Part shown: positions 19,144-64,000 of the stretch, piece by piece
Layout: each line of letters starts with the position of its first letter
How positions within the stretch are numbered: position 1 is the first letter of the stretch
IMG/VR virus record: IMGVR_UViG_3300017598_000768
Span: 35,833 to 99,832 of that record
Strand: one strand, 5' to 3'
Length of the DNA: 64,000 bases
From: a virus
Position numbers and translations under genes: made by a program
The notes under the pieces: generated by a model
Database searches by the model: none
What the model was told of the DNA's origin: nothing
The model's input: only the letters and a program-made list of their open reading frames with translations

Positions 19144-19559
19144 TACCTCACTCTTTCGTAGTGGACCAGATCTTGAAAGTCCTGATCAGTAATCGGTTCG
19201 GCATCCATGTCCCAGTTCCCTCCCCACCTTATCTTTATACCAAGTTTCACCGCACAAGTCAAAACAATTCCTGCCAAGACGCAGCAGTGCAACTTATTCC
19301 ATGATATCTCACCGTTTATATAAGGCGCGGCATCAACAGCGTCTGACGGATCGCTGTTGTGCTTCCCATCAGGCCACTTCGCTCTTGACTTCTGTGGCCT
19401 GCCGTAGTAATACTCGTTTTGCTTCTTCTTCCCACGATGCCCACAAACGATCGCGATATCAATTATACCCATCGCAAGCGCTTCCCTCAATACCCGCTGG
19501 ACGTCGAGGTGGCATGTCCCAAGCCTACGCTCCGACGTTGCTCCATAATAGAATTTCAT
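19143..19559 (-). CDS. Endolysin, M15-type peptidase
   Basis: 138 aa. Zinc ligands of the L-alanyl-D-glutamate / D-Ala-D-Ala carboxypeptidase family are visible: H67 and the following aspartate in KHNSDPSDAVD, RWGGNWDMDAE at 111-121, and H133 in DLVHYER. Cleaves peptidoglycan cross-links at lysis. It has no signal peptide, so it needs the holin. Confidence 0.88.
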   Translation of the reverse strand: MKFYYGATSERRLGTCHLDVQRVLREALAMGIIDIAIVCGHRGKKKQNEYYYGRPQKSRAKWPDGKHNSDPSDAVDAAPYINGEISWNKLHCCVLAGIVLTCAVKLGIKIRWGGNWDMDAEPITDQDFQDLVHYERVR

Positions 19560-27839: not shown

Positions 27840-30800
27840 CTACGTCGTGGTGGTTGTAGTCGTGGTTGTCGAGTAAGCTGGATCTGAGAACGTGATCAAC
27901 GCATCGTCATTACTGTAATAGGTTGCTTTAATCCATTCATCAGCTCGAACGATTTTTGAGAGTCTTATTTCATCAAGCTCACCAGCATACTCCCTTTCGT
28001 TTCCTAAGTCGTCCTGTGCACCTATTCTAAAGTCCTGCGTATGTGTATCAAGAGCACTTGTCTGGGTGTTGTCTGTACCCTGTGAAACTCCATTTCTCCA
28101 CAGTTCGCTACCAACCCCAGCTTCAAACGTTCCAGCTATGTGCTGATATCCTGACGTGTGTCCAAGCAAGGTTAATACGAAATTATAAGTGCCTGAATCC
28201 ATGTGAACCGCAGCAATCTTATTTGATGTCGTTTGATAGTAAAGGCAGAAACCATCAGCCGCCCCATCATTATACCTACCAACGACGATCATGTTCACAC
28301 CGGGAGTAATTCCTTCTATTATGGCTTCCAGAGTATAATCGTCATCCATATCCAACGACGAGTCGTCACCATGGTCAATCCAATCCCCAGACCCGTCAAA
28401 GTCAATCGCTTTTCCTATTGCTCCGTCTACCAAATCTGCACTTGTCATACCTGCCGTTGCTTGACCATGATTCTCATTCCGCGTCGAGTCTTTTATAAAA
28501 TCTGCCGCTCCCGAACTCGGGTCTTGTGCCATGTGGCAGACCAAGATAAAATCATCATCCCAGACCTGTTCGCACGTTCTGGCAAGCCATTCAATTCCGT
28601 CAAATGAATGTGTATGACACCCTCTATAAGGGCCAGCATTTCCAGAATACCACATCTCATATCGATCAGTGTCCTTAACAACTGTCGGTCGTACAACTCC
28701 ATTCCAGTCAACCAAAGGAAGTGAATTTATATCGAGCGAAAGCTGATGACTTGACCAACTCGTTCCATTAGCCGAAGCACAGTAAAGGATTCTCCAGTTA
28801 GAACCGTTAAACCCTCCATACCACAGCTTATATGTGGAGCCATCTTTAATAACACAAGGCCATTGAGAACGTTGCGAATCGTATGTTCCTTCGGCTCCTT
28901 CTTTAAAGCAAAGGGTGTGACCTGTCCAACTCTTTCCGTCAGACGACGTGCAGTAAATTATAGAGTAATTCACCACTGCATTCTTTCCTGAGTACCACAT
29001 CTTGTAAGTTGCGCCGTCTTTGATAACAGCACAGCACCCTGCGGAATCAGTATCGTATGTTCCTTCATCCGAAAGATCTACAACCATCTCATGGTTTGAC
29101 CAAGTTTTACCATCAGATGAATCGCAATAAATTACTCTATTATTAGAACCATCATATCCTTGATACCACATTTTATAAGTTGAGCCATCTTTAATTACCC
29201 AAGGATCAAGTGCTCTGTCAGTGTCATAAGTACCTTCATCTCCGATGTCTACAACCATTTCAAAATTCGACCACGATAACCCATCTTCAGAATCGCAGTA
29301 AATAATTCTATAATCTGAGCCATCAAATCCGCCATACCACATCTTGTAAGTGCCGTCGTCTTCTTTTAAGACATGCGGTCTTAGTATGTGTGTGGTGTCA
29401 TACGTACCTTCGGAAGAGAGATCCACCACCATAGAAATTTGATGTCCGTCAGTGTCCCCTACGTAATCATAATTTTTAAGCTGGGCTGAATCATAATATA
29501 AATACAACGTCGTGGTAGTTCCAGCATAAACACTCGGAACCTTGACCCATAACCATGCATCCTCGTCGGCATCCACCCAACGCTCTATTTCTACGTGACA
29601 CTGACTCAGCCCATCACATTCTGTCACTGCAATTTTAAATCGATTAGCGTCAGAAGCCAGCTTGTCAAAAACATCCGTGACGTCTTTGCTCGTGATCCCA
29701 GACGAAGATGACAGGTAGATCAGAACCGGGAAGTCAGACAGGTTCGAATCTACATTCGTATTATCGACTTCAAGCTCAATCCTGTTTGCCCAGTCACCGA
29801 GCCACTGTCCTTGAGCCACCGTCGTAGTGGTCGTCGACGACGTGCTCGATGTGGTCGTGCTCGTTGTGCTCGTCGTGGTGCTGGACGACGTTGTGGTCGA
29901 TGACGTGGACGAAGTGGAAGTCGAGGTCGTCGTCTGGGTGACCGTCGTGCTCGTGGTCGACGAGGTAGTACTGGTCGTGGTCGAAGTCGAGGTAGACGTG
30001 GAAGTGGTCGACGTGGTGCTGGTCGTGCTGGTCGTCGAGACAGTCGTACTGGTGGTCGAGCTGGTCGTGGACGTCGATGTGGTGCTGGTCGTGGTCGATG
30101 ACGACGTGGTGGATTCTGTGACGGTCGTCGATGTGGTGGACGTCGAAGTCATCGTCGTGGACGTTGTCGACGTGGACGTGGTCGAAGTCGAGGTCGTACT
30201 GGTCGAAGTTGAGGTCGTCGACGTAGTCGTCGTGCTGGTCGTAGTCGTGCTGGTCGTAGTCGTTGAAGTGGTGGTCGTCGTTGTTGGTCCGCGCGTATCG
30301 ATGCGTGGGATCGAGGTTGTTCTTAGCGTCACCTCGGACACGTCCTCTGTTAGATATTCAATTCTGAGCGTGTCGTCTGCAAACCTTGAGATCGGCATGA
30401 GCGATGCAAGCAGATATCCAAGTTCTTCCGCAGTACAGTTAAACCCAGTCGGCCCGCTGAGCTGCAACGACGTTGGCGTTGGAGCACTGAGAATATTTCT
30501 CGTAACCTTCGTTCCGTCCGGAGCAAACAAGAAAATATTACTTCCAGCCGGTCCGACCTCATATCCTAAATCCCAGTACGTATCCCAGTCTATGTCCTCA
30601 ATGTCAATAATCGAGTCTGCTGCACCAACAGCTGATGTCACCTCAATATCTCTCTGCCACGACGGAAAATAAAACTTCTTCCATTTTCCACGCACAAAGT
30701 CGAAAAACTTGATCAGTTCGTACAACTCCGCCTTGCTGCCGAACGTGTACTTTGCCTCAATCCCTGTCAAACTTTCGAGATACGAGAAGTCTACCGTTTC

Positions 30801-31496
30801 TTTTCCAAGGAAGCTCCAGATGTCATAAGGTCGGGCAATGACTTCCTTCAGCCCGTCTCTCCAGTTTGGCTCCATATCCATAACCGGGAACCCTTGGTGA
30901 AGGGGGAACTCATTCACCCCTAAATATTCTTTAACTATATCAACATCAAAAGCTTCTTCCACATTAAGGCTGAACTCTCCAATTGCACTGGTCAGCCTAC
31001 GCGTCTGCTGCTGCCAATCAAACCTTCCTTGTAACACCGGATATACGCTTGAGCCAAGTGCCCAAGTCGCAGCAAGATTATCAACCAGCGTAATCTGAGT
31101 CGCAGCTATCGAAGCTATCTCTCCATATTCATACGAAGAAAACGATCCCCAGATAAGGCAAGGAGCGCCGACCTCAAAATTCCGGTACTCAGTCGCCCCG
31201 ACCTGGAGGATCTTCTGCCCAGAGGCAGCCTGCGCAGTCAGTGTCGTGCGATCCATCCAAAACGGAACTCCTACTACCTGATGAATTCGCTGGTACAACA
31301 CACGTTTCAACAACGCCGACTCCGCCGATGTGAAAGGATTCACACGAAACTGCAATGACTTACGTGGGTACGTAAACAGAGCACTTCGTATCTCATTCCC
31401 TACAATCGACGTCTGTATCCCAGTCTTCCAGTACCTTTCAAGGTACACTGATGCGCTCCAGTTCGGGGGCAAAGTCAGGATATCATTTATTATCAC
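27840..31496 (-). CDS. Giant tail-tip protein: minor tail domain, Thr/Ser linker, DUF2341, propeller, LamG, Thr tail
   Basis: 1218 aa; GTG start at 31496. Residues 1-395 resemble DUF2460-type distal tail proteins (LPPNWSASVYLERYWKTGIQ). Residues 405-559 are an almost pure Thr/Ser linker. Next come a DUF2341-like domain (FPVLIYLSSSSGITSKDV) and about five repeats of the type YKMWYGGFDGSDYRIIYCDS, as in five-bladed glycosidase-like propellers. A LamG/concanavalin-like domain follows (AIDFDGSGDWIDHGDDSSLD), then nine C-terminal Thr. Best candidate for the main receptor-binding protein, with glycan-binding modules displayed on a mucin-like stalk. Confidence 0.85.
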   Translation of the reverse strand: MIINDILTLPPNWSASVYLERYWKTGIQTSIVGNEIRSALFTYPRKSLQFRVNPFTSAESALLKRVLYQRIHQVVGVPFWMDRTTLTAQAASGQKILQVGATEYRNFEVGAPCLIWGSFSSYEYGEIASIAATQITLVDNLAATWALGSSVYPVLQGRFDWQQQTRRLTSAIGEFSLNVEEAFDVDIVKEYLGVNEFPLHQGFPVMDMEPNWRDGLKEVIARPYDIWSFLGKETVDFSYLESLTGIEAKYTFGSKAELYELIKFFDFVRGKWKKFYFPSWQRDIEVTSAVGAADSIIDIEDIDWDTYWDLGYEVGPAGSNIFLFAPDGTKVTRNILSAPTPTSLQLSGPTGFNCTAEELGYLLASLMPISRFADDTLRIEYLTEDVSEVTLRTTSIPRIDTRGPTTTTTTSTTTTSTTTTSTTTTSTTSTSTSTTSTSTTSTSTTSTTMTSTSTTSTTVTESTTSSSTTTSTTSTSTTSSTTSTTVSTTSTTSTTSTTSTSTSTSTTTSTTSSTTSTTVTQTTTSTSTSSTSSTTTSSSTTTSTTSTTTSSTSSTTTTTVAQGQWLGDWANRIELEVDNTNVDSNLSDFPVLIYLSSSSGITSKDVTDVFDKLASDANRFKIAVTECDGLSQCHVEIERWVDADEDAWLWVKVPSVYAGTTTTLYLYYDSAQLKNYDYVGDTDGHQISMVVDLSSEGTYDTTHILRPHVLKEDDGTYKMWYGGFDGSDYRIIYCDSEDGLSWSNFEMVVDIGDEGTYDTDRALDPWVIKDGSTYKMWYQGYDGSNNRVIYCDSSDGKTWSNHEMVVDLSDEGTYDTDSAGCCAVIKDGATYKMWYSGKNAVVNYSIIYCTSSDGKSWTGHTLCFKEGAEGTYDSQRSQWPCVIKDGSTYKLWYGGFNGSNWRILYCASANGTSWSSHQLSLDINSLPLVDWNGVVRPTVVKDTDRYEMWYSGNAGPYRGCHTHSFDGIEWLARTCEQVWDDDFILVCHMAQDPSSGAADFIKDSTRNENHGQATAGMTSADLVDGAIGKAIDFDGSGDWIDHGDDSSLDMDDDYTLEAIIEGITPGVNMIVVGRYNDGAADGFCLYYQTTSNKIAAVHMDSGTYNFVLTLLGHTSGYQHIAGTFEAGVGSELWRNGVSQGTDNTQTSALDTHTQDFRIGAQDDLGNEREYAGELDEIRLSKIVRADEWIKATYYSNDDALITFSDPAYSTTTTTTTTT
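27843..27869 (-). repeat. Thr tail tract 2
   Basis: Nine consecutive Thr codons directly before the stop of the giant tail-tip protein. Confidence 0.9.
29820..30284 (-). repeat. Thr/Ser linker tract (155 codons) inside the tail-tip protein
   Basis: Nearly all codons are Thr or Ser, with a few Val, Glu, Gln and Met. It contains TTVTQTTTSTSTS, almost the same as a stretch in the 84-aa basic protein's tail at 37.3 kb, so sequence exchange between tracts is likely. Plus-strand frames here are open but reflect only the reverse complement of the repeat. Confidence 0.9.
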
Positions 31497-35387: not shown

Positions 35388-35942
35388 TTAGGTCGTCGTA
35401 GTCGTAGTCGTGGTGGTTGTTGTAGCAAACGTTACGTCAAAATACGGTGAACTCGCATGAAGCGAAGAGTCCGCAAGGCCATCACCTGTAAACGAGAGCA
35501 ACTGCCATTCATCACTTAGCAGATTAAACGCCCCTCCAGGAGACAAAGTACACTTCCAAAACTCCCACGTTTCATTCTGGCCCGCTGGCTTGTCTCCAAC
35601 AAACTTCAGCGCATACTCCTTGTCCAAGGCCGTGTTCGCCCGGAGCACATTTGCCGTGGCCCCAACCGTCGCCTTTAGGAACATACGCATGTTCAGCAGA
35701 CTGATCTCATCAAGATCAAAGTTCAGCGTATACCCAGTTTCCAGTACTACTTGTTTATCCTTAACTTTCAGTCCGGATCTTGAGCTGTAGTGATCGAGTT
35801 TCTCCTCCGTCACTTCAACTTCAAATCTCGGACAGTTACCCACGTCTGTAAGAGCGCCGGGAGGAGTATCACCGCTCCATTCTCCAATGCTCAGGATTCC
35901 CCTTCCGAGCGCATACAACTGGGTACTCGGGCTGCTTATCAT
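35388..35942 (-). CDS. Major tail tube protein with Thr tail
   Basis: 184 aa. Beta-rich tube-type protein (FEVEVTEEKLDHYSSRSGLK, VVLETGYTLNFDLDEISLLN) at the canonical position upstream of the chaperones. It ends in 11 Thr with mixed codons. The stop codon sits in the loop of a small CGACC-TAAA-GGTCG hairpin. Hundreds of copies would coat the tail with Thr tails. Confidence 0.88.
   Translation of the reverse strand: MISSPSTQLYALGRGILSIGEWSGDTPPGALTDVGNCPRFEVEVTEEKLDHYSSRSGLKVKDKQVVLETGYTLNFDLDEISLLNMRMFLKATVGATANVLRANTALDKEYALKFVGDKPAGQNETWEFWKCTLSPGGAFNLLSDEWQLLSFTGDGLADSSLHASSPYFDVTFATTTTTTTTTTT
35391..35423 (-). repeat. Thr tail tract 3 (tail tube)
   Basis: Eleven Thr codons (ACA, ACC, ACG and ACT all used) before the stop of the tail tube gene. 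Confidence 0.92.
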
Positions 35943-55580: not shown

Positions 55581-56024
55581 CTACCTCCCTACTGCATACC
55601 TGGCTTCTCTCGCAAGCTCATCCGCTCGCTCATTCTTCCTGATGCCTACATGTCCGGGCACCCATTTGATCTTAAAATTGAATTTCACAAACAGCTTCGA
55701 CAGTTGCTGCCACAAGTCCTTATTCTTAACTGGCTTATTGTCCGCTGTCTTCCAACCATTCTTCTTCCACTTCTCCAGCCAACCCTTTGTGAAAGCATTT
55801 CTAACGTATTTCGAGTCAGTGTAAACAGTAACAGCTACCACTTGCCTCAACGCCTCAAGACCGGCTATTACCGCCATCATCTCCATTCGGTTATTCGTCG
55901 AAGACAATTCACTTCCGCTGATTTCCTTCACGTGCTTCCCATAACTCAAAATCGCCGCATACCCTCCTGGACCGCCTGGATTCGGGTAGCACGAGCCGTC
56001 TGTATAGATCGTCACTTTCTTCAT
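55581..56024 (-). CDS. rnhA: Ribonuclease HI
   Basis: 147 aa, full length for bacterial RNase HI. YTDGSCYPNPGGPGGYAA supplies the first Asp, NNRMEMMAVIAGL the Glu, YTDSKYVRNAFTKGW the second Asp, and WVPGHVGIRKNERADELA the His and last Asp. Removes RNA from RNA-DNA hybrids during replication. Confidence 0.95.
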   Translation of the reverse strand: MKKVTIYTDGSCYPNPGGPGGYAAILSYGKHVKEISGSELSSTNNRMEMMAVIAGLEALRQVVAVTVYTDSKYVRNAFTKGWLEKWKKNGWKTADNKPVKNKDLWQQLSKLFVKFNFKIKWVPGHVGIRKNERADELAREARYAVGR

Positions 56025-56407
56025 TCAAGTTCCTCAATCTTGTAGTTTCCTGATGCCATCAAATTTGCTTTTGTGGCCTCGGCTATCGGCGGGAAGCTGC
56101 CGTCTTCATTCTGCTCTTGCGTCTCGCATGCCAGCCAACCATCATGTTCTGCAATGGCGTCAAGGAACCCTTTTTTCTCCAACTCGGATTCAAAATGCCT
56201 GACCTCCATAACCTGCGGGCACTGGCCCCATATAACCCGGACTGGCTTTACATACGGGTACACCAGACTTGCGCAGCCGGGGCACTCTCCAGACGGAACC
56301 ACTCCTCCCGGCTCTATCCTTTCAGACAGCTTGTCCACTCTTGCCAGATCTATCAGATAATCTTTCGCATCAATCATCCTCTGGCAGTTCTCACACCTAT
56401 GCAACAT
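56021..56407 (-). CDS. Zinc-binding protein, 128 aa
   Basis: The start at 56407 (MLHRCENC) follows GGAGACGG. CENC near the start and CPGC near residue 40 form a treble-clef-like zinc site. C-terminal half acidic. Overlaps RNase HI by 4 bp. Confidence 0.72.
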   Translation of the reverse strand: MLHRCENCQRMIDAKDYLIDLARVDKLSERIEPGGVVPSGECPGCASLVYPYVKPVRVIWGQCPQVMEVRHFESELEKKGFLDAIAEHDGWLACETQEQNEDGSFPPIAEATKANLMASGNYKIEELE

Positions 56408-56585
56408 CTTCCGTCTCCTTCTTCTTCGGTTTGTAAGACATACACTTGCCGTCTTCTCCAATCTCCACTTCCTTTAAACCACACACGAAACTCCGATGGT
56501 CAAAACTCTCACAGTCTGAAGCCATGCAATATACCATTCTCGTGTCCTTCAACCACTTGTCGATCTCTATCTTTATTTTTTGCAT
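56397..56585 (-). CDS. Small Cys-containing protein, 62 aa
   Basis: GGAGAAAGG ribosome site. YCMASDCESFDHRSFVCGLK, then CMSYKP: four cysteines in a spacing that could bind iron-sulfur or zinc. First gene downstream of the repeat array. Confidence 0.7.
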   Translation of the reverse strand: MQKIKIEIDKWLKDTRMVYCMASDCESFDHRSFVCGLKEVEIGEDGKCMSYKPKKKETEDVA

Positions 56586-56624
56586 AACCTTTCTCCTATC
56601 AATTCAGAGCAATTCAACCCATCA

Positions 56625-57470
56625 CTCGTCGCCGCTACAACACATTACAAATCAATTCTCGACGTCATCGCACGCCAATCTCTCATCCTGCCAACTCTCG
56701 TCGTCAAAACACCACTCCACAGGCCATTGCACCACGCTCCTCGCAGCCAGTACAAATCAGGACCTTCCAAATCAAGGCTCGTCGCCACCACAAATCATTC
56801 TCGCCCAAATCGCTGCACAACTCGTCGTCAAATCATCCCTTGTCAAATCACAACTCGTCGTCAAGTCGCTTCCCGTCATTACAATTCTCGAAGGCATCAC
56901 ATGCCACAGCCTATCCACGTCCGCTTCATTTCTCGTCGCCGTTACAACACCATGCATTACAATACGGGCCTCGACGTCAATCCGCTGCGTTACAACTCAC
57001 AGCCGCTCGCAACATATCATTGCTCGTCGTCAGAACATAACACATCAATACATTGCTCGAAGTCACTGCCACTACAATACAGCCCAGTACTCGGCGTCAC
57101 TACAATTCCTCCCCTTCGGACCAATACTCGTCGTCATTCGTTTCAAAGCCATGCATTCCACTACTCGGCGTCATCTCATACCTCAACATACCGCAACCAC
57201 TCACATCACCACTCGGCGTCATGGCACATAAGTACAATTCATCTCCAACCATACCACTACTCGTCGTCACTACAATGCTGATCATGTCATTTCTCGAAGC
57301 CAAGTCATGACATTGCCATCCAGCTCGCTCCTCGTCGTCAGATCAATCCTTAACATCGCAGTACTCGTCGTCATGTCAGACCAACGCACATGAGACCAAC
57401 TCATTTCTCGTCGTCAGCTCGGATCAACACAGTTCTCGTCGACAAATTCTTCACATCGTTCTCGTAAGAA
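56625..57470. repeat. Pentamer-phased direct-repeat array, non-coding
   Basis: About 850 bp, 23 units. Each unit begins with the core CTCGTCGTCA or a 1-4 base variant (nine exact copies at 56697, 56821, 56854, 57023, 57127, 57260, 57331, 57364 and 57407). After the core come 3-8 pentamers of the form NNNCA, and then 3 bases. Unit lengths are therefore mostly 28, 33, 38, 43, 48 or 53 bp (16 of 22 intervals equal 5n+3 exactly). The fourth base of each pentamer is C nearly throughout. Stops in all frames exclude a protein. Its right edge overlaps the 3' end of the 57-aa gene. Confidence 0.88.
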
Positions 57471-57587
57471 TTCAAGCGCTTTCGTATAGTGGCTGAAATA
57501 CAACGACTGGAGATTTTCAAGTCTGCCGGTCTGTATTACTGAATCTCCTTCCTTTGTTACACTGAAGCTGAATATCTTATCTTTCAT
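57414..57587 (-). CDS. Small protein, 57 aa, 3' end inside repeat array
   Basis: ATG at 57587, 7 bp after the stop of the 217-aa gene, weak AGG ribosome site. IFSFSVTKEGDSVIQTGRLE, then YTKALEFLRERCEEFVDENC. Its last codons contain the array cores (GTCGACGAG) and its TGA stop is part of an exact core copy, so the array may have grown from this gene's 3' end. Confidence 0.68.
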   Translation of the reverse strand: MKDKIFSFSVTKEGDSVIQTGRLENLQSLYFSHYTKALEFLRERCEEFVDENCVDPS

Positions 57588-57593
57588 TTCAAC

Positions 57594-58247
57594 CTACATT
57601 TTCTTGATCGTGAACTTGTACCTGCCTTCACCCATACCACGCTCTCCGCCATACCCATGAACCGAGCCATATTCAAAAATGGCCTGAAGATTCTTGAACG
57701 TCACTTCCTTGTGGTCCATCAAAAGCAGCACGAACTCAAACGATGGCTTCTCCACATAGTTGATAACTTTCAGTGCATTCCTCGGCCCCTGCCTCGTCAT
57801 GATATGAACCGGCTGTTCGTACGAACCGTCAGGTTCTCTAAAGGCCTTGCTCTTCCCTTTTATCAGGTAGACCTTGTAATCTTCGAGATACACCATATTC
57901 GCTACTTTCGACTTGAATGCCTTGATCTTCAAAACATCCTTGATCTGGTTCGCACAGTCTTTCAGGTGGGCTTTGATCGTTCCTCCCCTGACCCAGAGCC
58001 CGACATCATCCATCTGAAACCCGAGCGTCGTGCGCTCCACGGTATCTTCGATCGAGTCCTGTACTTCCTTTTCTATCTCCTCGATCGGCTTTGCGTCATC
58101 AGGCTTCTTCTTCGGCATTCGTGACTGAAGCCACAACGGAACAATCTGTTTCGACTGCGGGACTGAACCACAGAGCCTGTAATTAAAACGCATCTTCACC
58201 TTGTACCTTGCCCATAATGCCAATTTCTCATCTTTCTTCTTTGCCAT
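57594..58247 (-). CDS. 217-aa protein with RAMP-like features
   Basis: Gly-rich C-terminal loop EYGSVHGYGGERGMGEGRYK, and VGLWVRGGTIKAHLKDCANQ in the middle. These recall the Gly-rich loop and the GSSLKG-type segment of RAMP (Cas5/6/7-like) RNA-binding proteins. The resemblance is by eye and could be chance. The gene lies upstream of the pentamer-phased array on the same strand. Otherwise function unknown. Confidence 0.72.
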   Translation of the reverse strand: MAKKKDEKLALWARYKVKMRFNYRLCGSVPQSKQIVPLWLQSRMPKKKPDDAKPIEEIEKEVQDSIEDTVERTTLGFQMDDVGLWVRGGTIKAHLKDCANQIKDVLKIKAFKSKVANMVYLEDYKVYLIKGKSKAFREPDGSYEQPVHIMTRQGPRNALKVINYVEKPSFEFVLLLMDHKEVTFKNLQAIFEYGSVHGYGGERGMGEGRYKFTIKKM

Positions 58248-63880: not shown

Positions 63881-63908
63881 ATTATATCACATCACCATCT
63901 TATGTCAA
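63881..63908 (-). promoter_or_regulatory. Sigma70-type promoter
   Basis: TTGACA (63903-63908), spacer 16 bp, TATAAT (63881-63886), 27 bp upstream of the 133-aa gene. Confidence 0.85.
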
Positions 63909-63940
63909 GTTATTTCCGTGGATTTCCGCATCCCTCATAA

Positions 63941-64000
63941 CACCAGATCAGTCCGGGTCATAACAGTCCAATCCGGTCCACACCACACCACTCCACACCA
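63941..64000. repeat. Second pentamer-phased tract, runs off the window
   Basis: Twelve consecutive pentamers in register from 63941; the fourth base is C in all twelve and the fifth is A in ten (G in two). This is the same NNNCA phase as in the array at 56.6-57.5 kb, but no CTCGTCGTCA core is seen in these 60 bp. It lies upstream of the 63.88 kb promoter. Confidence 0.8.

Follow-up and report, generated by a model that had tools for sequence, protein, structure and literature searches.

A stretch of 64,000 nucleotides (positions 35,833 to 99,832 of the IMG/VR virus record IMGVR_UViG_3300017598_000768; hereafter the window) carries a non-coding array of five-base repeats directly downstream of a same-strand gene for a small protein of the RAMP superfamily. 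This locus is very probably a phage-encoded RNA-guided targeting system of the Viral Interference Programmable Repeat (VIPR) kind, such as that of Escherichia phage SUSP1 (KT454805), described in 2026 (PMC13142463). In VIPR, the NN of YNNGG repeats is paired and one target base is skipped, each five guide bases thus covering three bases of the target (PMC13142463); the SUSP1 repeat itself reads YNNGG. The two components in the window are as follows.

56592..57444, minus strand: guide array of 853 nucleotides, with boundaries set by a token parser and the period by autocorrelation.
57594..58247, minus strand: Vipr-like protein of 217 amino acids with a RAMP/Cas7 fold, carrying KAHLKDCA and the G-rich loop YGSVHGYGGERGMGEGRY (alignment of 23 relatives, AlphaFold2 and Foldseek).

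On the minus strand, which is co-directional with the genes, the array consists of (YGNNN)n pentamers interrupted by 22 ten-base cores, TGNCKNCGAG (two of them start with CG); after each core come NNN and 3-8 pentamers, and the TG of the core continues the pentamer phase. A sequence-only reading of this DNA had proposed a 5-nucleotide phase, and the phase is real: within the interval marked by that reading, TG-TG pairs at lag 5 on the minus strand number 47, against 17.2 ± 3.6 in 1000 dinucleotide shuffles (maximum 28), with an excess also at lags 10, 15, 33 and 38 and none at lags 7 and 11. Its counts of 23 units and of 16 out of 22 intervals of length 5n+3 have to be corrected to 22 cores and 21 core-to-core intervals (28, 43, 33, 38, 33, 48 and so on), 16 of which are 5n+3, and the periodic motif that it read as TGNNN on the minus strand is YGNNN, that strand being the meaningful one. 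The near-identical contig G001 (IMGVR 3300017613_001540) has 17 of 21 intervals in phase because one extra base restores it. The array RNA folds no more strongly than shuffled sequences and matches no Rfam family, as would be in keeping with a coated guide. The triplets as codons of a hidden protein were considered and rejected, stop triplets being common in the array.

The 217-residue protein has no curated family match in Pfam or PHROGs, and the weak Csm4 and Cas6 matches given by this protein or by a relative lie at the C-terminal glycine-rich loop, which is invariant across the family. Its AlphaFold2 model (pLDDT 86) was matched by Foldseek to Cas7 backbone subunits (type VII Cas7, Cmr/Cmr4 and Csm3), with 107 PDB chains at E-values up to 1e-3, and the best match among viral models is named Cas-associated RAMP superfamily protein. 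Cas7-family subunits oligomerise along guide RNA. The sequence-only reading overlooked the RAMP gene next to the array and did not see the variable bases as guide sequence; its suggestion of an oligomeric protein stepping 5 nucleotides along single-stranded nucleic acid is nevertheless well supported, because the neighbour has a Cas7-family fold and the pair co-occurs almost always.

This co-occurrence was seen when IMG/VR was searched with the RAMP protein alone, which gathered 51 loci, some being the same phage recovered twice. A detector found a same-strand array at 47 of the 51; at L179, L181 and L217 the array was seen by eye only (upstream, with a variant core, or degenerate), and the remaining locus, L208, is cut by the contig end. 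A scan for the core-plus-pentamer pattern, which had also been proposed, returned mostly chance matches, along with some arrays that have the same grammar and otherwise no resemblance; a stricter pattern brought in about 30. Conservation of phase in homologous loci, set as a test by the sequence-only reading, is found across the family, where 410 of 513 core-to-core intervals are 5n+3. Among 2171 family pentamers, position 1 is T in 82% or C in 12%, position 2 is G in 97.6%, and the last N is G in 49%. The core in most of the roughly 30 arrays is TGACGNCGAG, with lineage variants including TGAAGYCGAG, TGTAGYCGAG and TGATGCCGAG; units mostly hold 3-9 pentamers between ten-base cores, and an array may contain up to about 40 units. 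No relatives were confirmed in GTDB genomes, and none were found in plasmids.

Two distant RAMP homologues were also noticed. In Microcystis phage Mae-JY09 (PP395641; L220:12700-13237), the homologue is followed by non-coding DNA that by eye resembles NNNYC pentamers with a CCGACTACCC-like core, with a weak lag-5 signal; it looks like the same logic with other constant bases. In a human gut phage (MT835477; L337:3001-3564), the homologue lies at the end of an unannotated scaffold, and no array is visible in the available sequence.

Periodic non-coding repeats are frequent marks of origin, centromere or packaging sites, and on this general ground the array might be taken for a DNA-level element phased by protein at half-turns. 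The half-turn phase, which the sequence-only reading had offered as its other option, finds no support here, and a DNA-level role is highly improbable: 5n+3 spacing loses helical phase, the array strand is always that of the RAMP gene, a single phage can carry as many as five arrays (L209 and L210), and the content of the arrays turns over.

This turnover resembles that of guides. The loci L180 and L186 share 84% identity across the RAMP gene and the initial part of the array, beyond which only short weak matches are found, and among three close relatives (L306, L314 and L318) whole units have been gained or lost. Furthermore, five divergent phages share one unit by its triplets, CAC-TTG-TCG-GCG-AAG-TTT-TCG, with varying columns in 1 of 21 triplet positions versus 5 of 12 linker positions. 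Shared units were paired by triplet similarity among 569 units, a procedure that favours conserved triplets; even so, triplet identity of such depth among that number is not expected by chance. Judged by these comparisons of sequence, the array content behaves like guides, in its turnover as in the shared unit. Alternatively, the array could be a structural scaffold or decoy, on whose YG-phased RNA the Cas7-like protein polymerises, titrating a host factor or building a ribonucleoprotein (RNP), with NNN as neutral filler. Such a role would suit the strict phase kept while NNN varies freely in most comparisons, as well as window guides without a found target, but shared guides keep their triplets while linkers vary, whole units turn over, and the gapped terminase match described next lies far above permutations; we regard it as very unlikely.

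The VIPR rule was applied by pairing bases 3 and 4 of YGNNN, skipping the fifth and stepping the target by three. Under this rule, a 20-pentamer unit of the relative phage G039 (L241:1423) matches its own terminase-like gene, antisense, at 33 of 40 paired positions, with the skipped base falling on the codon wobble position, whereas 500 permutations of the guide's triplets reached at most 26 of 40. The terminase-like protein (717 amino acids) is similar to annotated terminase large subunits. Over all units, strong outliers came from step-3 readings only, the top score being -13.4, whereas 43 shuffled sets reached -10.3 at best. Weaker matches with the same rule and codon phase are 19 of 20 in a capsid-like gene (L023) and 16 of 16 over the DPPY motif of methyltransferase-like genes in several phages. 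In other geometries, no target appeared when all three bases were read at the guide's own spacing; a co-linear target with 2-nucleotide gaps (NNNxx) was rejected, its IMG/VR matches being the arrays themselves only and its one match in the genome collection, on the sense strand of nadB, having an estimated chance expectation of ~0.25; self targets with gaps of 0-3 and all three bases read showed no excess; and the guides contain no codon-phase signal.

In G039, this single 20-pentamer guide immediately precedes the terminase gene to which it is similar and is itself preceded at close range by the end of a promoter-like TTGACA (L241:1403-1548); further short arrays occur scattered through this phage. 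The guide's real target could be a competitor's terminase, self being spared by the mismatches, or it could serve self-regulation. No closer terminases to compare with the L241 guide were found locally, those of GenBank phages being only ~29% identical.

A different code for the same two-component RNP has also to be weighed, in which all of NNN is read, so that each pentamer specifies three contiguous target bases and protospacers are unbroken. It would account for the fifth base being conserved in the guide common to five phages, which a pure skip does not predict; a contiguous 21-mer of this guide has one IMG/VR match against ~0.04 estimated by chance, and the step-3 NNN reading also yields outliers. 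However, no clear gene is present at this 21-mer match (L339:3058), the other NNN outliers differ little from shuffles, and the G039 terminase match shows agreement of third bases at only about 4 of 20 positions. We consider this code unlikely, though less so than the scaffold or the DNA-level element.

Against a VIPR-like system with a one-base skip stand, besides that conserved fifth base, several further points. The decisive gapped target is a single case, and it lies in a relative; taken singly, neither the 19 of 20 nor the 16 of 16 match surpasses the best shuffled match. From the window array, one decoded guide of 18 bases gave just one match in IMG/VR, with its skip off the wobble position and ~1 expected by chance, and searches including IMG/VR established no targets of the window's own guides, for which we infer the 1-nucleotide skip from the relatives. 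In an hhalign comparison, aligned at the G-loop, the RAMP protein shows weak similarity to SUSP1 Vipr (probability 3.9%, E 0.011). The constant motif, the guide length and the apparent lack of a structured tail, compared with VIPR below, count on the same side.

On the VIPR-like reading, the array and the RAMP gene upstream of it would be co-transcribed from the minus strand, and the RNA would be coated by the Cas7-like protein, each subunit covering five bases and gripping the constant YG, as the fold of the protein and the period suggest. The TGNCKNCGAG cores would separate many short guides and may act as a handle or processing site. The two bases after YG would pair with the target, read in threes with the third base, typically the codon wobble, skipped; this pairing step draws on the sequence match in the relative, not in the window. 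The target would be DNA rather than RNA, as in VIPR experiments. By analogy with experimentally tested VIPRs, the array is predicted to be expressed as a vrRNA that is bound by Vipr and represses its target, and the likely purpose would be to repress genes that belong to competing phages or satellites.

Other features of the window touch on the array or its motif.

57414..57587, minus strand: small open reading frame (ORF) of 57 amino acids (...ENCVDPS*); its TGA stop codon opens the second core; read from sequence.
56397..56585, minus strand: next ORF past the array, 62 amino acids (MQKIKIEIDK...), with an AGGAGA ribosome-binding-like site at the array's end; read from sequence.
63926..64000, minus strand: core-less YGNNN tract, non-coding, 15 pentamers in the window (cut by the contig end); found with the parser.
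63881..63908, minus strand: promoter-like TTGACA-16-TATAAT, just after the core-less tract and ahead of leftward genes; read from sequence.

Many loci have a small helical ORF between the RAMP gene and the array, which starts at the stop codon of this ORF. The 57-amino-acid ORF occupies the corresponding position; no similarity between it and the relatives' accessory gene was established, and it has no family match. The accessory protein was considered as Cas11 and rejected, its helical model matching no PDB fold. As the 62-amino-acid ORF directly follows the array, the array occupies intergenic space within a run of genes; two genes downstream of the array, at 55581-56024 on the minus strand, a phage-encoded RNase HI is found (Pfam PF00075, E 7e-46). 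The core-less tract extends to 16 pentamers in the near-identical contig (G001:9263-9342) and may be one long guide RNA belonging to the same phage; a search for its target found none. Two other repeats were rejected as arrays: the repeats with periods of 15 and 21 at 29.8-30.3 kb are coding, arising from a long Thr/Ser-only stretch (TTTSTTTS...) in a 1218-amino-acid protein (27840-31496, minus strand), and the pentamer run at 19247-19311 lies inside a coding gene.

Gapped RNA-guided target reading was described only in 2026, and the window locus with its about 50 relatives would present such a system in the form of long arrays in which many guides are divided by a constant separator. It adds support, at the level of sequence, for a gapped code that skips the wobble base, here in a family whose constant motif is different; it also offers compact candidates for programmable binding of DNA and for reading conflicts between phages out of metagenomes.

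Among known systems, TIGR-Tas (PMC12045711) likewise has a phage-encoded guide array outside CRISPR, but the window protein has a RAMP fold and is not Tas, and the pentamer grammar is not reported for TIGR-Tas in the accessible part of that source. Class 1 CRISPR-Cas (types III and VII) shares the Cas7-family backbone fold, variable units between constant elements and rapid unit turnover, and multi-guide arrays of the present kind bear on the origin of CRISPR arrays. The window array, however, consists of pentamer-phased guides with constant bases inside, not contiguous spacers, and its ten-base, non-palindromic core differs from the long, near-identical CRISPR repeat. No other cas gene was recognised near it among six neighbouring genes scanned against Pfam and PHROGs, nor did clustering across 45 loci reveal a recurrent cas-like gene family.

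VIPR is closest, and shares the logic of an element that the sequence-only reading held to be undescribed (PMC13142463). Both have a phage-encoded single small RAMP protein, with an RRM core and G-loop that AlphaFold2, Foldseek and the invariant G-rich loop indicate for the window protein; both have adjacent non-coding tandem pentanucleotides with constant and hypervariable positions in a minimal locus, to which many relatives of the window system add a small accessory gene; and gapped decoding with a 1-nucleotide skip at the codon wobble is seen in the relative G039/L241. In type II VIPR, a vrRNA of 9-16 repeats is followed by an invariant structured tail, other types being varied (PMC13142463). 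In contrast, the window family has YG as its constant motif, often with G as the last base (gYG/NN rather than GGY/NN), units of mostly 3-9 pentamers, many units per array split by the constant core, no visible structured 3′ tail in the window array, and a protein only weakly similar in sequence to SUSP1 Vipr. The locus works like VIPR, yet has neither the strict GGY motif nor the type II guide-and-tail architecture. PMC13142463 speaks of seven VIPR types, allowing for a 'related consensus' and for arrays that vary, and the window system may be one of these types. Somewhat less than evenly probable, in our view, is a separate, unreported VIPR-like type with CRISPR-like arrays of many short guides, a constant handle and a YG motif (perhaps YC in a cyanophage), including a guide that resembles its own phage's terminase, and intermediate between single-guide VIPR and CRISPR arrays.
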